Virus record (IMG/VR): IMGVR_UViG_3300027969_000462
Location: 1 to 21,692 of that record
DNA: 21,692 nucleotides
Source of the DNA: a virus
Strand: one strand, 5' to 3'
This document shows, in pieces, positions 1,470 through 20,666 of this stretch. How positions within the stretch are numbered: position 1 is the stretch's first letter; every line of letters begins with the position of its first letter. The notes below the pieces were generated by a model. The model was not told where the DNA came from. It worked only from the letters and a program-made list of their open reading frames with translations, and ran no database searches. The translations under genes were made by a program, and so were the position numbers.

Positions 1470-3564
1470 GATTGATGACGCTATTGGCTTTATTGAGAGT
1501 GAAACAGTAGAGCAGCGCAAACAGGCTTTAGAAGCGTATCTCCGTCAACCTTATGGGAATGAGGTAGAAGGTAAGTCTTCAATCGTTACAGGTGAAGTTG
1601 CAGAAGCCATTGATGGTGCTTTGCCTTCCCTAGTCCGTATCTTTACAGGCTCAGATGATATTGTAGTTTTTGAGCCTCAAGGCCCGAAGGACGAAGCATC
1701 TGCAAAACAAGCGACACAGTATTGCAATTGGGTTTTTAGCCGTGATAACGAAGGCGTAGCCATTCTCCATGATTGGTTCAAGGATGCTCTGCTTCAAAAG
1801 AACGGCATCATTAAAGCCTATTGGGAAAACAAAGAAGACATTACCAAAGAGCGTTACTTTGACTTGTCTAACGATGAGTTAGCAATGCTAATGAGCGATG
1901 AGACTATGGAGATTGTCGAGCAAGATACGACAGAGTTCCCAATATTTGACCCAATGGGACAGCCAGTTATAGACCCTATGGGTATGCCTGTAATGGGTGC
2001 TACTCATAACGTAGTTGTTCAGCAAAAGAAGAAATCAGGCAAAGTAACGATTGAGAATGTCCCTCCAGAGGAGTTCTTGATTAGCAAGAAGGCTAGAACT
2101 ATTGCTGACTCACCTTTCGTAGCCCACAGGCAGATGTTGACTCGTAGCACATTGATTGCTATGGGTTTTAACAAAGACCAAGTAGAGAGTTTACAGATGG
2201 GTGATGCTTTGGCTTATACGCCAGAGCGTGTGGCTCGTTATGCTGCTGGTGAGCAACCTTACCAAGTTCAGACTGATGACCCTTCAATGCAAGAGATTGA
2301 AGTCTTTGAGTGTTATGTCAAAACTGATATAGATGGTAAAGGCATTGCTTCTCTGACTCAAGTTTTCTATGCGGGAAATGAGATTCTTCAAGATGAGAAG
2401 GGTAAAGAGATTATTGAGGAAACAGACTATGTTCCGTTCCATTCAATTTGTCCTATACCAATTCCGCACAAGTTCTTTGGTAACTCATTAGCTGACAGAA
2501 CAGTTGACCTACAGTTAATCAAGACCACTATCACTCGTCAGATGTTGGATAACTTATATCTGACAAACAATGCTCGTGTCGTGGCTGTGGAAGGTCAAGT
2601 AAACCTTGACGACTTGCTTACATCTACTGCTGGTGGTGTTATTCGTGCCAAGTCACCTAATGCCGTCCAACAGTTAGTTGTGCAGAACGTGGCAAATCAG
2701 GCTTTTCCAATGCTTCAGTATTTGGACACAGTACAGTCTAAGCGTACAGGTGTTAGTGATGCTTCACAGGGTTTAGACCCTTCTATCTTGCAGAACGTGA
2801 CTGCTGCTGCCGTAGCTTCTATGCAACAAGCTGGCGCAGGTAAGATTGAACTTATTGCTCGAATCTTTGCTGAGACAGGTGTTAAATCTTTGTTTAAAGG
2901 TATCTTGCACTTGCTTTGTAAGTACCAAGACAAGGCTCGCATAGTGCGTATGCGTGGTGAGTTCGTAGAGTTTGACCCTAGAACATGGGCTAACCAATAC
3001 GATGTTTCTATCAATGTAGGTTTAGGTGCTGGGAATCGTCAAGAGCAGATGGCTATGTTGTCGATGGTTCTTGCTAAACAAGAGCAGTTGATTGGTCAGT
3101 ATGGCCCTGCTAATCCTTACGTTTCACCTGCTCAGTATCGTGGCACTTTGGGACGCATGGTAGAGATTGCAGGGTTTAAAGATTCTGCTGAGTTCTACAA
3201 AGCAATTACGCCAGAGCAAGACCAAGCATTGAGTAATCCTCCTCCACAGCAACAGCAAATGCCCCCAGAGGTTCAAGCGTTGATGGCTAGAACACAGGCT
3301 GAGATACAAGCTAACCAAGCTAAAGCACAAGCTGATATGCAGATGCAACAACAGCAACAGCAAATTGATATGCAGATGGCGCAACAGAAAGCTGGACTTG
3401 AGATGCAGTTATTGCGTGAGAAGGAAGGTGCTAAGTTGCAATTAGAGCGTGAGAAACAACAGGCTTACTTTGCATTGAAACAACAAGAGTTTGAAGCAGA
3501 AGCACAGTTAAAAGCAATGAAAATTGGTGCTGGCATTACATCCAACGTAGAGATTAGAGGTTAA
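1432..3564 (+). CDS. Portal protein (head-tail connector)
   Basis: Forms the ring at one capsid vertex through which DNA enters and leaves, and nucleates head assembly. From ATG 1432 it is 710 residues, as large as P22-type podoviral portals. The conserved-looking stretch SSIVTGEVAEAIDGALPSLV at 49-68 is typical of portals in such phages. A loop at 173-187 repeats DPMGxPVx twice. The C-terminal region from about 598 to 697 is Gln-rich coiled coil (QQQQ runs, then EMQLLREKEGAKLQLEREKQ), reminiscent of the portal barrel region. Alternative starts are TTG 1408 and ATG 1426; AAGGA at 1422-1426 is well spaced only for 1432. It follows terL and the overlapping coiled-coil gene and precedes the scaffold by two genes. 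Confidence 0.9.
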   Translation: METNDLKSILQAEIDDAIGFIESETVEQRKQALEAYLRQPYGNEVEGKSSIVTGEVAEAIDGALPSLVRIFTGSDDIVVFEPQGPKDEASAKQATQYCNWVFSRDNEGVAILHDWFKDALLQKNGIIKAYWENKEDITKERYFDLSNDELAMLMSDETMEIVEQDTTEFPIFDPMGQPVIDPMGMPVMGATHNVVVQQKKKSGKVTIENVPPEEFLISKKARTIADSPFVAHRQMLTRSTLIAMGFNKDQVESLQMGDALAYTPERVARYAAGEQPYQVQTDDPSMQEIEVFECYVKTDIDGKGIASLTQVFYAGNEILQDEKGKEIIEETDYVPFHSICPIPIPHKFFGNSLADRTVDLQLIKTTITRQMLDNLYLTNNARVVAVEGQVNLDDLLTSTAGGVIRAKSPNAVQQLVVQNVANQAFPMLQYLDTVQSKRTGVSDASQGLDPSILQNVTAAAVASMQQAGAGKIELIARIFAETGVKSLFKGILHLLCKYQDKARIVRMRGEFVEFDPRTWANQYDVSINVGLGAGNRQEQMAMLSMVLAKQEQLIGQYGPANPYVSPAQYRGTLGRMVEIAGFKDSAEFYKAITPEQDQALSNPPPQQQQMPPEVQALMARTQAEIQANQAKAQADMQMQQQQQQIDMQMAQQKAGLEMQLLREKEGAKLQLEREKQQAYFALKQQEFEAEAQLKAMKIGAGITSNVEIRG

Positions 3565-14649: not shown

Positions 14650-16278
14650 ATGGCTGATATTACAGTAACCTTTAATGATGGTACTTCTCATGTTTATAGA
14701 AATGCCCCAGAAAGTCTTACTAAAGACGATGTAATTTCTCGCATTGCTAAAGACTTTTCTGGTAAGCAGATTACTTCTCTTGATAGAGTTGCTGGTGGAC
14801 AAAAGTTATCTGGTGAAGAAGTTTTAACAGGTGCTGTTACAAACTTTCCTAGTTCTGTTGGCTCAATGCTTGGCGATATATACCAAGCTGTTACAAGTCC
14901 TATTCAAACAACTAAGGCTGTTTTAGACCTTGGTGCTGGCATATTGCAAAACGCATTACCAGAGCGACTTGTGCAAGCAGTAGGTGAAGACAAAGCAAGC
15001 CGTGACTTAGCTTCTAAAGTTGGTCAGCACTATGTAGAGCGTTATGGTAGCGTAGAAGGTGCTAAACGAGCATTGGCTACTGACCCTGCTGGAGTTATGG
15101 CAGACCTATCTACTGTTCTTACAGGCGGTGCTATGTTGCCTACAAGGGCTGCACCTGCATTGGCTACTGCTGCTCGTGCTGTTGACCCATTGATGTTAGC
15201 GGCTCGTGCTACTGGTAAAGCCGTAGATATTACTGGCTCTGTTGCAAAACCATTATTGGGTATGCAAACAGGCGCAGGTACAGAAGCTATTGGTCAAGCA
15301 TATAAAGCTGGAAAAGTAGGCGGTGAAACTTCTGAAATGTTTAAAGCAAATATGCGTGGAGAAGTTCCACAAATTGAAGTTTTAGATGCGGCTAAACAAA
15401 ACTTGTCAGCTATGGCTGAACAACGTCAGACTGCTTATCGTACAGAAATGGCAAATATTAGCAAAGATAAATCTGTTTTATCTTTTGATGGAATTGATAA
15501 AGCCATTGACAATGCTATGAACAAAGTTACTTATAAAGGTCAAATTGTTAATGAAGAAGCATTTGACAAAGTAGTTAAAGCAAAAGCAGAAATTGATGCT
15601 TGGAAGCAACTAGACCCTGCTGAGTTTCACACTCCAGAAGGTCTTGATAAGTTAAAACAAAAAGTTGGCTCTGTTCTTGAGAAAATTCCTTTTGAGCAAA
15701 AAACATCATTGACTGCTGTTAATGAGGTTTATAACGGCATTAAAAACGAGATTAAAAAACAAGCACCTACATACGCAAAAACAATGCAAGCGTATTCTGA
15801 GGCTACAGATTTAATTCGTGAAATTGAAAGAACATTGTCGCAAGGTAAAAATGCTTCTGTAGATACGCAAATGCGTAAATTACAGTCAATTATGCGTAAC
15901 AATGTAAATACAAACTTTGGTCAGCGTTTAAGTTTGGCTCAACAATTAGAACAAGCTGGTGGTAAACAAATGCTTCCAGCTTTGGCTGGTCAAGCATTAA
16001 ATACATATACGCCTCGTGGACTACAAGGTGCATCGTCAATTCCTACTTCTTTAATGGCTGGTAGTTTATTTGGTAATGTTGCTGTTCCGTTATCATTGGC
16101 TACTTCATCTCCTCGTTTGATGGGTGAAGCGGCTTATGGCGCAGGTCGTGTCGCTAAAGGCTTGCTTGACGTACAGAACAGGATGCCAAACATAGACTAT
16201 CCAACAATGTTTAACTTGCTTTATCAAGCTGAACAACCTAGAAAAATTGACCTAACTGGAATGGCTAACCCCGACTAA
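14650..16278 (+). CDS. Probable internal virion / DNA-ejection protein C
   Basis: A 542-residue protein from ATG 14650; the in-frame GTG at 14641 overlaps the previous stop and is less likely. The N-terminal domain, [20 protein letters not shown] then [14 protein letters not shown], is a small module I recognise from the front of several phage internal proteins, some of which continue into a lytic transglycosylase; here no such catalytic motif follows. The rest is helical with Ala-rich segments near 150-195 and Lys/Gln-rich coiled coil at 250-420. A hydrophobic Gly/Ala/Ser stretch near 465-510 ([16 protein letters not shown]) could insert into a membrane during ejection. Function is inferred from composition and context. 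Confidence 0.65.
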
Positions 16279-16286
16279 GGACTGAT

Positions 16287-17912
16287 ATGCCCAAGACAAA
16301 GATTAGTGAGTGGAGTTCGACTCCCGCAAATAATACAGACATTGACAGTATCAATATCGCAGAGGGTTGTGCGCCTTCTGGAATTAACGATGCTATCCGT
16401 GAGTTAATGTCACAAGTTAAAGACTTGTACGCTGGAACTAGCGGAGACATAATTGCCGTGGCTGCTGGCGGCACTGGTGTTGGAACAAGCACTGGCTCTG
16501 GCAATAACGTATTGTCAACATCGCCAACACTTGTTACTCCTGTCCTTGGAACACCTACTAGCGCAACTTTAACAAACGCTACAGGACTTCCAATTGCCAC
16601 AGGCGTATCTGGCCTAGGTACTGGTGTTGCCACTGCTTTGGCTGTGAATGTGGGTTCTGCTGGCGCACCTTTAGTCAATGGTGGTGTTCTAGGAACTCCA
16701 TCTAGCGGTACTGCTACAAACCTTACAGGCTTGCCAATTTCAACTGGTGTGTCAGGTTTGGGTACTGGTGTAGCTACATTTTTAGCCACTCCATCAAGTG
16801 CTAACTTAGCGGCTGCATTGACTGATGAAACTGGTAGCGGTGCTAATGTCTTTGCAACTAGCCCAACATTAGTTACGCCTATTCTTGGCACACCAACAAG
16901 TGCAACATTAACCAATGCTACAGGCTTGCCACTAAGCACAGGCGTAACTGGAACTCTGCCAGTAGCAAATGGTGGTACTGGACTAACAACAACTCCTGCT
17001 AATGGTGCTTTGGATATTGGTAATGGAACAGGCTTTACTCGTACAACATTGACAGCGGGTTCTAACGTAACAATTACAAATGCAAGTGGTGCTATCACGA
17101 TTGCGGCTTCTGGTGGTGGAACACCTGCTGGCTCAAACACACAAGTCCAGTTTAACAACTCAGGTGCGTTTGGTGCTTCTGCTAACTTAACATACGATGG
17201 TACAACATTAACAAGTACAACCGCAACTGCATCAGGTATTGCTTTAAATAGCACTACAGATGGTCGAGCAAACATCGTATTTAAAAGTGGTGGAACTCAA
17301 TATGGCATTGTCGGACTATCAGGCGCAGTTTTGGGAACTAGCGCAACAGATATGGCTCTGTTTGCAGAAACTGGTGGTGCAATCAAGTTTTTTACCAATG
17401 GTACATCCTCAAACGCATCGACTATTAATCGGTATGGTTTAGGCATTGGTGCGGCAGTTCCATCATCTGGTATTGGCATCACATTCCCCGCAAGTCAGTC
17501 AGATTCATCAAACGCTAATACGCTAGATGACTATGAAGAAGGCGATTGGACACCAAGCGCAGAATTTAGCGGTGGTAATGGAACACGAACAAATGTGGAC
17601 TGCCGAGGTAAATACACAAAGATTGGCAATCTAGTAACTGTCAATTTTTATACGCAAGTAACAAAAGGAAATGGTAGCGGTAACTTATCTTTTAGCGGTT
17701 TGCCATTTAGTTCTGCTAGTTTTGCTTTTGGCACTCCTATGTCAACTTGGAATATGACAGGTGTAAATAATGCTTTGGCATATGTTTCTGGAGGTACAAG
17801 TTTTACTTGTTACTTTAGTGGTTCTGGCTCATCAACATTGGCCTACATTACTAGTGCAGAAATGCAAACCACAAATGCTGTCGTTACTGGCAGTTTCTCA
17901 TACAGAGTTTAA
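16287..17912 (+). CDS. Tail fibre / receptor-binding protein
   Basis: Trimeric-type fibre that should contact the host surface. The 541 residues start with a particle-attachment-like domain ([20 protein letters not shown], then [15 protein letters not shown], 5-41). A Gly/Thr/Ser shaft with [20 protein letters not shown] repeats follows at 79-222. Then come [31 protein letters not shown] (284-303) and a head domain from about 411 with [15 protein letters not shown] and [23 protein letters not shown] at 16277-16281 serves ATG 16287. No intramolecular chaperone or hydrolase motif is seen. The large C-terminal part is the likely specificity region. Confidence 0.9.
16521..16952 (+). repeat. Shaft repeats in the tail fibre
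   Basis: Three related units (16521-16634, 16677-16778, 16860-16952) encode [20 protein letters not shown]-like sequence; the first and third also share SPTLVTP, and the first two share SGLGTGVAT. Codons differ at many synonymous positions, which argues for old repeats. Confidence 0.85.
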
Positions 17913-17915
17913 TTA

Positions 17916-17935
17916 ACTTGGTTGGATTACCAAGT
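17916..17935 (+). other. Hairpin between tail fibre and downstream genes
   Basis: Perfect 7-bp stem ACTTGGT / ACCAAGT with a TGGATT loop, starting four bases after the fibre stop. It is followed by GGGATACTTAAC rather than a T-run, so it is more likely an RNA-stabilising or processing hairpin than a terminator. Confidence 0.55.
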
Positions 17936-17961
17936 GGGATACTTAACTAAAGGAAATCAAA

Positions 17962-18222
17962 ATGTCTTTAACTAAAGAAACTGTAGTAGACCAAATCACA
18001 GTAACTGAGAATGGAATTATTCTTTATCGTGAGGCAACTCGCATTATGGAGAATGGCGTTCAATTGAGTCAAACTTACCATCGTTCAAGCCTAACACCCG
18101 CACAAGACTTAACAGGAGTTCCCGCTAATGTTGTTGCAATTTGCAATGCGGCTTGGACTGCTGAAGTAGTTGCGGCATATCAAGCGGCACAGGCTGCTGC
18201 TGAAGCTGCTCGAAATGCCTAA
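17962..18222 (+). CDS. Small protein after tail fibre
   Basis: Unassigned 86-residue protein with an AAAGGAA ribosome site at 17949-17955. Residues 1-45 look beta-rich (VVDQITVTENGIILYREATR, then NGVQLSQTYHRSSLTP), and the C-terminus is an Ala-rich helix (VVAAYQAAQAAAEAARNA). Small proteins of this plan commonly follow fibre genes in environmental phages. A fibre-assembly or attachment-tip role is possible from position only. The next gene starts two bases after its stop. Confidence 0.7.
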   Translation: MSLTKETVVDQITVTENGIILYREATRIMENGVQLSQTYHRSSLTPAQDLTGVPANVVAICNAAWTAEVVAAYQAAQAAAEAARNA

Positions 18223-18224
18223 TC

Positions 18225-18452
18225 ATGGAAGACCAAGTAACCCATAGTCAAATCTACGAGAGACTGCTTGCAGTTGAAACTAAGGTAGATAGCATAGACA
18301 AGAACACTAAAGGGCTTGTAGAGGCTTTTGATGCCTTGCAGGGTGCTTTTAAAGTCTTGGGATGGATTGCTTCTGCTGCCAAGCCTATTCTGTGGGTGGC
18401 GGGTCTAATCATGACGGCTGGTGCTGTTTGGCAGACTTGGATTAAAAAATGA
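18225..18452 (+). CDS. Small one-membrane-segment protein, possible holin or lysis protein
   Basis: A 75-residue protein with an N-terminal coiled-coil helix (IYERLLAVETKVDSIDKNTK, 10-29) and a C-terminal hydrophobic segment (ILWVAGLIMTAGAVWQTW, 55-72) ending in lysines. The layout recalls XhlA-type or class III holin-associated proteins, with a helical cytoplasmic part and one membrane anchor. No ribosome site of note; translation is probably coupled from the previous gene. Its stop overlaps the next ATG in an ATGA, making a coupled chain with the micropeptide and the secreted protein. The holin assignment is inferred from topology and neighbours. Confidence 0.65.
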   Translation: MEDQVTHSQIYERLLAVETKVDSIDKNTKGLVEAFDALQGAFKVLGWIASAAKPILWVAGLIMTAGAVWQTWIKK

Positions 18453-18541
18453 TGGATTGGCTAGAAGCTATTGTGGCTCTAGCCTTTCTTTTTTGTTTTG
18501 TCATGTTCTGTAGTCATGTCATTATTTGGGCTATGCCGTGA
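18449..18541 (+). CDS. 30-residue membrane micropeptide in the lysis region
   Basis: A short open frame of 30 codons beginning ATG-ATG. It overlaps the previous stop (ATGA at 18449-18452) and ends in a GTGA overlap with the next gene at 18538-18541. After MMDWLEA it is almost wholly hydrophobic (IVALAFLFCFVMFCSHVIIW) and ends AMP. One transmembrane helix is expected, with D3 and E6 at the N-terminal side. The head-to-tail coupled position without any gap between two frames is the main evidence that it is translated. No family is recognised; short membrane peptides of this kind act as pinholins or holin regulators in some phages, which is a hypothesis here. Confidence 0.5.
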   Translation: MMDWLEAIVALAFLFCFVMFCSHVIIWAMP

Positions 18542-18825
18542 GATGGCTAGTAGCACTTGTTCTAACTCTTGCACTTCAATCTACAGGAAAAGACCTATGT
18601 AGTGTGCGTGAGTTTTACTCAATAGCATACAAAATTCACAATCCTTCAGAACGGCATCAACAAATGTCTTTTTGGCTTAATAAACATCAAAACTTATGTT
18701 CAAGCAAAGACATGGTGGTTATTTGGAATAATTTATCAGAATGGGGTGGTAGTGCAGATAGCGCAGAATTAAGACACTTGGTAGTTAGTGCCTACAAAAA
18801 TGCACTTGAGCGTGAGAAGAAATGA
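18538..18825 (+). CDS. Secreted 95-residue Cys-pair protein
   Basis: Start taken as GTG 18538, overlapping the micropeptide stop by four bases; TTG 18526 is the only longer option. The N-terminus MRWLVALVLTLALQSTG looks like a signal or signal-anchor sequence (Arg2, hydrophobic 3-13). The rest is charged and soluble, with cysteines at 21 and 54 that could pair in the periplasm. Notable stretches are CSVREFYSIAYKIHNPSERH and VIWNNLSEWGGSADSAELRH, ending in a basic helix. I recall similar proteins in other phages without a named function. Position among holin candidates makes a periplasmic lysis regulator plausible, but no homology is claimed. Confidence 0.65.
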   Translation: MRWLVALVLTLALQSTGKDLCSVREFYSIAYKIHNPSERHQQMSFWLNKHQNLCSSKDMVVIWNNLSEWGGSADSAELRHLVVSAYKNALEREKK

Positions 18826-19055
18826 TAATCCCAAGCAAGTGGTATCCGATGGTTCAACCAAGATACGATTTTCAGACTGTTGTTTTTGATAAGGCTGCTG
18901 AAAAAGTAGATGAAGACTACAGACTAGCAATGAAGGCTCACAAGATTGAGTTAGTAATAGCAGAATTAGAAGTGGAACTGTATAACAAGAAGGCTCGGGT
19001 CAACCAGTTAGAGTTGGCAATGTTTAAAACTCGCAGATTAGACTTGTACGCATAA
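18822..19055 (+). CDS. Small coiled-coil protein, unknown
   Basis: A 77-residue protein starting in an ATGA overlap with the preceding gene; GAGAAG lies just upstream. Residues 1-20 contain IIPSKWYPMVQPRYDFQ, then a long charged helix (KAAEKVDEDYRLAMKAHKIE and ELEVELYNKKARVNQLELAM) with heptad-like spacing, ending RRLDLYA. No membrane segment or signal peptide. No function recognised. It sits inside the lysis region but nothing in the sequence ties it to lysis. Confidence 0.65.
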   Translation: MIIPSKWYPMVQPRYDFQTVVFDKAAEKVDEDYRLAMKAHKIELVIAELEVELYNKKARVNQLELAMFKTRRLDLYA

Positions 19056-19063
19056 GGATAAAA

Positions 19064-19324
19064 ATGGAACATAACCAAGATGTCGTGGGTAAATTAACCT
19101 ATTCTGTAACCTTGATGGTTGCTTCAACTCTTTGTTTATCAGTGCTTGGCATGGTTGCGGCTTTCCTACTTGGCTTATGGGCTAAGGAAGTTGATAATGG
19201 AGAAATCTTTGCTATGTTGCACCCTGCGTTTCAAACCATCATTGGAGGCTTTATTGGCCTCTTGGCGGGTGTAAAACTTTCTCATGGTGATAGTCACCAT
19301 AAATGCAAACATTGTGAGGACTAA
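19064..19324 (+). CDS. Two-membrane-segment holin-like protein
   Basis: An 86-residue protein with two hydrophobic segments: about 13-40 (SVTLMVASTLCLSVLGMVAA) and 55-71 (FQTIIGGFIGLLAGVKL), separated by a short acidic loop KEVDNGEIFAMLHP. The loop plus AFQTIIGGFIGLL resembles small phage proteins annotated as holins in marine and freshwater phages. The C-terminal tail carries HHKCKHC at 78-84, which could bind a metal ion. AAGGA shortly upstream serves ATG 19064. It is followed two bases later by a second holin candidate and then the endolysin. Confidence 0.7.
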   Translation: MEHNQDVVGKLTYSVTLMVASTLCLSVLGMVAAFLLGLWAKEVDNGEIFAMLHPAFQTIIGGFIGLLAGVKLSHGDSHHKCKHCED

Positions 19325-19326
19325 TC

Positions 19327-19821
19327 ATGCTTGATATTCTTAGTGGCGGTTTGTTAGGTTCTATCTTTGGCGGCATCTTTAGGATGGCTCCAGAGGTGCT
19401 CAAATGGCTTGATAAAAAGGATGAAAGGCAACACGAGCTTGCACTTTTTTCTCGCCAATGCGAATTAGAGCAAATGCGTGGCCAAATGAAACTAGCTGAA
19501 ATTGGCGCACAAAGAGAAGCTGCTATTGACGTAGGTGTGATGGATGCTTTCAACAACGCCATTACACAGCAAGCAGAGATGGTTAAAGCCGCAGGTGGAT
19601 GGGTAGCCTCACTTTCTGCTTCTGTACGTCCTGTGGTCACTTATTGGGTACTATTCGTATGGTCATTTATCCATGTTTGGTTTGCATGGAACGCTTGGTT
19701 AGCAGGTGCGCCAGCTACTGAAGTCTTCAAAACAATGATGACTCCAGACTTTTCTGCTTTGCTATCAGGAACAATTAACTATTGGTTTCTTGATAGAACT
19801 CTGTCTAAGCGTGGTTTATGA
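19327..19821 (+). CDS. Holin candidate, GTA 3TM-holin-like
   Basis: A 164-residue protein with an amphipathic or hydrophobic N-terminus (LSGGLLGSIFGGIF, 5-18), a charged coiled-coil middle (31-66), a strong hydrophobic segment at 102-127 starting RPVVTYWVLFVWSF, and a weaker one near 142-155 (FSALLSGTINYWF). The RPV-TY start of the membrane helix and the FSALLS...W end fit the 3TM holin family first described in gene-transfer agents. GAGGA at 19316-19320 serves ATG 19327. Its stop overlaps the endolysin start in an ATGA, the classic holin-endolysin arrangement. Holins make membrane holes that let the endolysin reach the wall. Confidence 0.75.
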   Translation: MLDILSGGLLGSIFGGIFRMAPEVLKWLDKKDERQHELALFSRQCELEQMRGQMKLAEIGAQREAAIDVGVMDAFNNAITQQAEMVKAAGGWVASLSASVRPVVTYWVLFVWSFIHVWFAWNAWLAGAPATEVFKTMMTPDFSALLSGTINYWFLDRTLSKRGL

Positions 19822-20261
19822 ACTTAGAACTGGCAGCAGAACTATGCAAAAGGTTTGAGGGCTTTCGTTCTAAGCCCTACCTTTGCCCAGCTAACGTGGC
19901 TACGATTGGCTACGGCTCTACCTACTATGCTGATGGGCGAAAAGTAACCCTGCAAGATAGCCCCATAGGTGAGGCTGTAGCTAGTGCCTTACTCATGCAC
20001 GAGTTAGAGCATACCTACCTACAAGGAGTTGTCAGAAACTGCCCCATACTTCTGACAGACGAACGTAAGTGCAACGCTATTGTGGACTTCTGCTACAACT
20101 TGGGTACTGGCAGACTCCAAACATCTACTCTCAAGCGAAAAATCAATGCCCAAGATTGGGAAGGGGCAAAAGAGCAACTCATGTTATGGAACAAGGGTGG
20201 TGGTAAAGTTCTAGCAGGTCTGACAAAGCGCAGAGTTGCAGAATGTGCCTTGTTAAATTAA
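19818..20261 (+). CDS. Endolysin, GH24 phage lysozyme
   Basis: Muramidase that cuts the beta-1,4 bond between N-acetylmuramic acid and N-acetylglucosamine. The 147 residues carry the GH24 catalytic spacing E14-x8-C23-x5-T29 (FEGFRSKPYLCPANVATIGY), with Cys in place of the T4-type Asp, as in P22-type lysozymes. The later DERKCNAIVDFCYNLGTG and GLTKRRVAECALL segments match the helical core and C-terminus of the family, and length is typical of a single-domain enzyme. No signal peptide or SAR segment, so release should depend on a holin. It is coupled to the upstream holin candidate by ATGA. No Rz/Rz1 spanin pair is recognised nearby. Confidence 0.93.
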   Translation: MNLELAAELCKRFEGFRSKPYLCPANVATIGYGSTYYADGRKVTLQDSPIGEAVASALLMHELEHTYLQGVVRNCPILLTDERKCNAIVDFCYNLGTGRLQTSTLKRKINAQDWEGAKEQLMLWNKGGGKVLAGLTKRRVAECALLN

Positions 20262-20291
20262 ACTGTAACAATTCTTGTATAAGGTGTTGAA

Positions 20292-20666
20292 ATGCCTAAC
20301 ATTCCTACGCCAGAACAAGCAGAACTGTTTGCACAAAGTGTCAGAAAGTGGCAGCAGGTGCTTAGTCTGGGTGATTGGAGAATTGAGAAAGGCATGAAGC
20401 CAGCTAAAGCGGCTATGGCTTCTGTTGAGTTTACACCTGCTGCAAGACTTGCTGTTTATCGTCTGGGAGACTTTGGTGCTGAAAAGATTACACCAGATTC
20501 ACTAGATAGAACTGCTTTACATGAGTTGCTTCACATTTTTCTGCATGACTTGATGTGTGTGGCTACAGACCCTAAGTCTTCTGATGAGGAAATAGAGATG
20601 CAAGAGCATAGAGTTATCAACTTGCTAGAAAACTTACTCTCTAAGGATTCCAATGGGTTCACATAA
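20292..20666 (+). CDS. HExxH metallopeptidase-like protein
   Basis: A 124-residue protein whose only clear motif is a zincin-type HELLH at 77-81 within TALHELLHIFLHDLM; a possible third metal ligand is E105 or H106 in MQEHRVINLLENLL. The N-terminus has FAQSVRKWQQVLSLGDWRIE, comparable to small SprT-like or phage metallopeptidase proteins. AAGGTG at 20281-20286 serves ATG 20292. Without a signal peptide it should act in the cytoplasm. Substrate unknown. It overlaps the following phosphoesterase gene by 14 bases, so the two may be co-translated and linked in function. Confidence 0.7.
   Translation: MPNIPTPEQAELFAQSVRKWQQVLSLGDWRIEKGMKPAKAAMASVEFTPAARLAVYRLGDFGAEKITPDSLDRTALHELLHIFLHDLMCVATDPKSSDEEIEMQEHRVINLLENLLSKDSNGFT

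Follow-up and report, generated by a model that had tools for sequence, protein, structure and literature searches.

The window, by which we mean the whole stretch of DNA that was analysed, is the 21,692-base viral record IMGVR_UViG_3300027969_000462. On its plus strand, an open frame at positions 18449-18541 holds 30 codons followed by a TGA stop. Its translation is MMDWLEAIVALAFLFCFVMFCSHVIIWAMP, and a micropeptide with one transmembrane helix is predicted from it. The frame lies between a gene for a 75-residue protein (18225-18452) and a gene for a 95-residue protein (18538-18825), and it shares four bases with each of them. At the ATGA of 18449-18452 the upstream gene ends with TGA (18450-18452), and at the GTGA of 18538-18541 the stop of the micropeptide gene (TGA, 18539-18541) overlaps the GTG start (18538-18540) of the next gene. 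The 75-residue protein has a charged, helix-like N-terminal part and a hydrophobic C-terminal part, and gave no family match above threshold. We take its architecture to recall that of XhlA; the XhlA model was not matched by it in Pfam at E ≤ 1 or in NCBIfam at E ≤ 0.1. The 95-residue protein has a hydrophobic N-terminus, invariant cysteines at positions 21 and 54 and a predicted four-helix domain. A preliminary description of this DNA had given the same coordinates with ATGA at the start and GTGA at the end, and both the frame and the two overlaps were read directly. It had also placed the frame between a membrane protein and a secreted protein. The position is as described, while the word secreted reflects only the hydrophobic N-terminus of the 95-residue protein, from which its export is judged probable. 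The frame was said to be coupled on both sides; four-base overlaps with both neighbours are present, and they would be consistent with translational coupling.

The genes which follow on the same strand belong to a lysis region, as the preliminary description had supposed. A gene for a 77-residue protein (18822-19055), conserved downstream in relatives, overlaps the 95-residue gene by ATGA. It is followed by a gene for an 86-residue protein (19064-19324) with two hydrophobic segments and a weak match to the holin family phrog_1527 (E 0.0012), and by a gene for a 164-residue protein (19327-19821) with a hydrophobic C-terminal part that belongs to phrog_6637, a family of unknown function; these two are the candidate holins of the cassette. 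The endolysin gene (19818-20261) matches PF00959 (Phage_lysozyme) with 117.9 bits against a cut-off of 22.3. Among relatives, 60 of the 63 contexts having at least 3.5 kb of flank carry an endolysin, either lysozyme or GH19, downstream, and in the other three only a relative of the 77-residue protein is found there. The GH19 cassette of one such locus (L130) contains an Rz-like spanin gene (phrog_1327, E 2.8e-11) and a PF00182 endolysin gene. On the other side of the lysis genes, another 86-residue gene (17962-18222; phrog_6228, unknown function, E 1e-20) separates them from a repetitive gene at 16287-17912. A 336-codon open frame on the minus strand (16265-17275) runs antisense to this repetitive gene and is probably an effect of composition.

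The start of the micropeptide gene deserves a comment. In six relatives of the window's clade, codon 1 is ATA or GTA and codon 2 is ATG, so the start in this clade may be the second ATG (18452-18454) rather than that at 18449, which would give 29 residues. The exact ATGA/GTGA geometry is characteristic of near relatives; farther off, TAA or TAG frequently serves as the stop, beside the next ATG. The recurrence of both overlaps in relatives, proposed earlier as a check on the gene, was seen close by and was often lost with distance. GTGA is present in 207 of 240 contexts among the matches listed, a set which includes loci obtained with a pattern requiring GTGA, and in 116 of 123 loci seeded on the 95- or the 75-residue protein, plus the window (duplicates included).

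Relatives were collected in five samples. These comprised the best 80 of 379 relatives of the 95-residue protein, the best 80 of 340 relatives of the 75-residue protein, the matches listed for a DNA pattern over the end of the micropeptide gene (the pattern that requires GTGA), the best, and hence nearest, 80 of at least 582 relatives of a 48-residue downstream protein, and the matches listed for a DNA pattern inside the gene of the latter. Only the second sample is independent of the downstream side; those seeded on the 95- or 48-residue protein or on a pattern are biased towards the downstream gene. In a first census, with a profile built from the first matches, the frame was found in at least 166 distinct contexts, and all 166 had exactly 30 codons with no indel or stop. 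A wider profile run over all loci gave at least 240 distinct contexts and at least 165 distinct proteins, 219 contexts having 30 residues and 21 having 31. Stops or frameshifts in relatives had been named beforehand as the observation that would speak against the gene. No broken full-length copy was found, in censuses which both begin from open frames, so that broken copies could escape them. The best independent test of the frame is the search with the 48-residue protein, since this protein is unrelated in sequence to the micropeptide: a 30-codon frame ending in an overlap was present in 73 of 73 distinct loci (the best 80 of at least 582 relatives, minus 7 duplicates).

Selection acts on the amino acids of this frame. 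Over codons 2-28, three clades of 25, 40 and 75 sequences gave pN/pS values of 0.157, 0.343 and 0.373 for this frame, and values of 0.70-2.19 for the two remaining forward frames. Of 27 columns at each codon position in the window's clade, 5 vary at position 1, 1 at position 2 and 14 at position 3. A chance frame is ruled out by the selection in frame together with the fixed length. A conserved RNA element was also considered and set aside: the window has no Rfam match, no repeats were found in 17900-20300, and the codon-position pattern is protein-like. The frame at 18449-18541 is a genuine protein-coding gene.

The micropeptide had no match above threshold in Pfam, PHROGs, NCBIfam or PADLOC, which agrees, together with the contexts and the selection described above, with the earlier claim of a real but unannotated gene of 30 residues. 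Matches to PHROG holins were weak (E 0.14 and 0.62, each for a single one of 19 members), and no holin model was among the Pfam matches. Scans of genome contigs gave no usable relative; an 11-residue match in one of them (L470) has stops in frame and was taken as chance. Among GenBank phages no match to the micropeptide was found below E 9, and the flanking genes were matched only distantly. No description of it was found in the literature searched. Fremin et al. 2022 reportedly predicted small genes in phage genomes, and the micropeptide gene resembles such short, conserved and unannotated frames of phage contigs. Judged by its sequence, the micropeptide appears to be a membrane microprotein of the lysis region that is new as a family relative to Pfam, PHROGs and NCBIfam.

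The protein itself shows a uniform pattern. The AlphaFold2 model is one helix over residues 3-28 (mean pLDDT 91.8), and with its hydrophobicity this fits the membrane micropeptide that was proposed at the outset. The first census yielded 112 distinct proteins, with D3 conserved in 109, A7 in 110, C21 in 105, and I25, W27 and A28 in 109 each; a charge past residue 6 occurs in only one of the 112. The best 19-residue hydropathy window averages 2.62 over the census and reaches 2.71 in the sequence of the window. In 133 sequences (effective number 23.8), conservation over residues 5-28 shows the periodicity of a helix (permutation p 0.02), and a stripe of low variation, picked after the data were seen, runs through A7, A11, V18, C21, I25 and A28. 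Because of the periodic conservation and this stripe, it is most likely that the modelled helix packs against another membrane helix.

The genes upstream of the micropeptide gene are of many kinds. By reading, the upstream gene could be classed in 163 of 166 contexts among the matches listed, and 11 unrelated families were found, the family of the 75-residue protein being the largest with 86 of 163. In 73 of the 163, again by reading, the upstream gene is unlike a small membrane protein and is mostly a long late gene, so the micropeptide gene need not follow a holin. When the 75-residue gene was followed through 130 distinct contexts among the loci gathered at that stage, the micropeptide gene adjoined it in 82 and lay farther on in 18; the 95-residue gene without the micropeptide was found in 7, and neither in 23. 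In seven loci (L169, L175, L217, L218, L231, L252 and L254) the 75-residue gene stands before a gene of about 217 residues of another kind, and the micropeptide gene is elsewhere in the contig. The 11 upstream families and these seven loci exclude a unit tied to the 75-residue gene. Two of the 23 contexts with neither gene (L100, 342-353; L127, 644-655) have a three-codon stub, ATG AAA GAC TGA, in the place of the micropeptide and an unrelated gene after it, which looks like a recombination scar.

On the downstream side there is far less variety. Among the matches listed, the gene after the micropeptide is of the 95-residue type in 97 of 240 contexts and of the 48-residue type (..YRCVRWAWTGDVYNRKVVCLEW..) in 138, and five are cut; one or the other family of cysteine proteins therefore follows in all 235 readable contexts. 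These types were assigned by motif rules instead of profiles. Most of the samples had a downstream feature as their seed, and a fixed partner is judged more fairly from the contexts first met through the upstream 75-residue seed, where 43 of 43 readable contexts have either partner (20 and 23 by type; two more are cut). Micropeptides of the same subfamilies are found beside either partner family, and the two partner families have no visible similarity to each other. The 48-residue family is a very conserved small cysteine protein with the motif W.W.GDVYNRKV.C...W (L277-L356 and L357-L469; for example L324, 3001-3153). Viral contigs contain at least 582 relatives of it, and Pfam, PHROGs and NCBIfam gave no match above threshold; in some of its members the hydrophobic N-terminus is very short. 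The 95-residue protein was modelled as a four-helix domain behind an N-terminal helix (pLDDT 88.7). A fold search in the PDB gave 149 matches at E ≤ 10, the best at E 1.9, and T4 RI was not among the best 50 of the 149; in BFVD three matches were at E 1e-3 or better, all of them uncharacterised phage proteins. Homology to RI thus finds no support in these fold searches. A distant relative (35%) of the 95-residue protein occurs in a GenBank phage from Manatee Spring (MW202825.1; L161, 4001-4240), two genes before the lysozyme gene and without the micropeptide.

Both partners are also found alone. Since the micropeptide gene is missing from 53 of 89 contexts of the 48-residue gene and from 12 distinct contexts of the 95-residue gene, it is dispensable. 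In the 89 contexts, which are those among the matches listed, it is present in 36, with 30 residues in 16 and 31 in 20. In the 53 without it, the gene before the 48-residue gene encodes a coiled-coil protein with a hydrophobic C-terminus in 19, a 192-residue protein in 10, a class II holin in 7, a 59-residue type in 5 and members of a 213-residue group in 3; a pair accounts for 2 and singles for 6, and in one none was found. In the micropeptide-less loci of the 95-residue gene that were examined, the end of another gene, mostly one for a coiled-coil protein with a hydrophobic C-terminus, lies only a few bases from its start codon. Of the 12 contexts, 9 begin the 95-residue gene with ATG and 3 with GTG, as against GTG in 160 of 166 with the micropeptide, some of which had been selected for GTGA (Fisher p 2.5e-9). 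At the downstream start, Shine-Dalgarno-like pairing reached -5 or lower in 0 of 166 contexts with the micropeptide and 0 of 12 without, so that its absence is no special evidence of coupling.

The relation to known holins became visible in four loci (L303, L307, L324 and L442), where a class II holin homologue stands directly before the micropeptide gene. The three of these that were scanned match PF16080 with 45.9, 46.0 and 47.7 bits for L303, L307 and L324, respectively (cut-off 28.8), and the micropeptides of the four loci belong to three subfamilies. In L324 the holin gene (2703-2915) is joined by ATGA to the micropeptide gene (2912-3004), which is joined by GTGA to a gene of the 48-residue type (3001-3153). 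A 164-residue gene follows, and farther on there are small membrane and lipoprotein-like genes, an Rz-like gene and a GH19-like endolysin gene. Read base by base, the holin/micropeptide junction is an ATGA overlap in L303, as in L324, and a TAATG overlap in L442. In the 7 micropeptide-less contexts noted above a class II holin fills the slot of the micropeptide, and two representatives from micropeptide-less loci score above the cut-offs of the Pfam models PF16082 and PF16080. Class II holins (PF16080 of HP1 type, PF16082, and PF04971 of P21 type) resemble the micropeptide in being small late membrane proteins that head a lysis cassette, and they stand directly upstream of it in the four loci and in its slot elsewhere. 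However, they have about 67-74 residues and two segments, whereas the micropeptide has one helix in 30 residues and does not match these models.

The established classes of lysis proteins were considered in turn. With one helix (3-28) against two transmembrane segments, and with no Pfam or PHROG holin match, the micropeptide is not a class II holin or a P21 pinholin, and the word pinholin used in the preliminary description fails in the P21 sense. Class III holins of the T4 T type have one TMD and a large periplasmic domain, which a protein of only 30 residues does not have. An antiholin of the lambda S107 kind is the longer dual-start product of the holin gene, but in L324 the micropeptide has a gene of its own with a four-base overlap with that of the holin. 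It is also no spanin (i-, o- or u-), as 30 residues hold neither a periplasmic domain nor a lipobox cysteine, and an Rz-like gene lies elsewhere in the GH19 cassette.

Among characterised systems, the mycobacteriophages Girr and NBJ encode LysF1a, with two TMDs, and LysF1b, with one, both of which are needed for normal lysis (PMC13056207). The likeness is that of a two-TMD and a one-TMD membrane protein in one lysis cassette; the Gram-positive host and the architecture are different. In T4, RI is exported through a cleavable signal peptide and binds the holin T in the periplasm (PMC8385771). The likeness here is that of a membrane component with a small exported regulator, but T has a periplasmic domain, and RI was absent from the best 50 of the 149 fold matches of the 95-residue protein. 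In phage N4 a pinholin is paired with a lysis regulator (PMC12642591). These known pairs show that both outcomes, a brake and a helper, occur.

Taken together, the micropeptide is most likely a single-pass inner-membrane protein, of 29-30 residues here and 30-31 in relatives, that belongs to the late lysis region. Stop-start coupling would have it translated between the gene of a membrane protein and that of a small, putatively exported cysteine protein. Its helix would most likely pack against another membrane helix and tune the formation of the membrane hole, and it would act beside the holin as an accessory or antiholin-type regulator, possibly with the exported partner. To this reading of the sequences and the helix model, namely a single-helix accessory or antiholin-type regulator of the holin in lysis control, brake or helper alike, we give a probability of about 50%. 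It is favoured by the gene and its conservation, the helix model, the two fixed partner families, the lysis cassette and the four overlaps with holin genes; against it, a class II holin is the neighbour in only four loci, and position is an association, with mechanism a separate matter. The earlier proposal of an antiholin or small holin partner is likewise favoured as far as position goes, through the four loci in which the frame overlaps a class II holin gene. Because the partner is constant, the micropeptide and the putatively exported cysteine protein may well act together, although each partner is also found without the micropeptide. A wider idea, which we hold tentatively and consider rather improbable, is a transferable two-gene cassette for lysis control, in which the 30-residue helix and the exported cysteine mini-protein, translationally coupled, would be carried behind varied holin or holin-like genes in many uncultured phages and time lysis in a way that has no relation to T4 RI/T or lambda S107.

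It is unlikely, but worth stating, that the pair forms a two-part regulator, one part in the membrane and one in the periplasm, which senses, for example, superinfection and sets the time of lysis. This would resemble T4 lysis inhibition built from unrelated proteins, and the export and holin binding of RI are in its favour, as are the constant partner (235 of 235, and 43 of 43 in the upstream-seeded sample) behind 11 upstream families and the pairing of the same subfamilies with either partner. Yet each partner also occurs without the micropeptide, the two partner families are visibly dissimilar, and the 95-residue fold found nothing in the PDB better than E 1.9, with RI outside the best 50 of 149. 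The constant place beside lysis genes in two endolysin cassette types, and beside holins in four loci, tells against a late membrane microprotein that would act on a host membrane complex or exclude superinfecting phage and sit in the lysis operon for its expression only, and there was no PADLOC match. Bacteria have many proteins of about 30 residues that serve as subunits or modulators of membrane complexes, and the 73 of 163 upstream genes unlike a small membrane protein would suit such a role, but we regard it as quite unlikely. Equally, a hydrophobic single helix inside a lysis cassette, whose slot before the 48-residue gene is held by a class II holin in 7 of 53 micropeptide-less loci, might suggest a minimal holin, with the micropeptide itself forming the hole or pore. 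This too is quite unlikely, as the micropeptide lies beside a class II holin in four loci and its cassettes hold other candidate holins (the 86- and 164-residue genes); known holins are longer than 30 residues and have one to three segments. Finally, the frame could mainly be a relay that passes ribosomes to the downstream gene, with an inert peptide. It has overlaps at both ends, and the downstream gene begins with GTG in 160 of 166 contexts that have the frame (a set partly selected for GTGA) and with ATG in 9 of 12 that lack it. However, a relay does not need conserved A7, C21, I25 and W27, and the purifying selection on amino acids and the helical periodicity make it highly improbable.

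The micropeptide represents a widespread family of membrane microproteins of nearly invariant length, which a large group of uncultured phages carries in the lysis region. It also offers a rule for practice: where a frame overlaps each neighbour by four bases and keeps a fixed length in relatives, it can be recognised as a real gene even though gene finders miss it for its shortness. Should the micropeptide act as a holin regulator, few regulators of lysis would be smaller, and it would provide a compact system in which one helix tunes the formation of a hole in the membrane.
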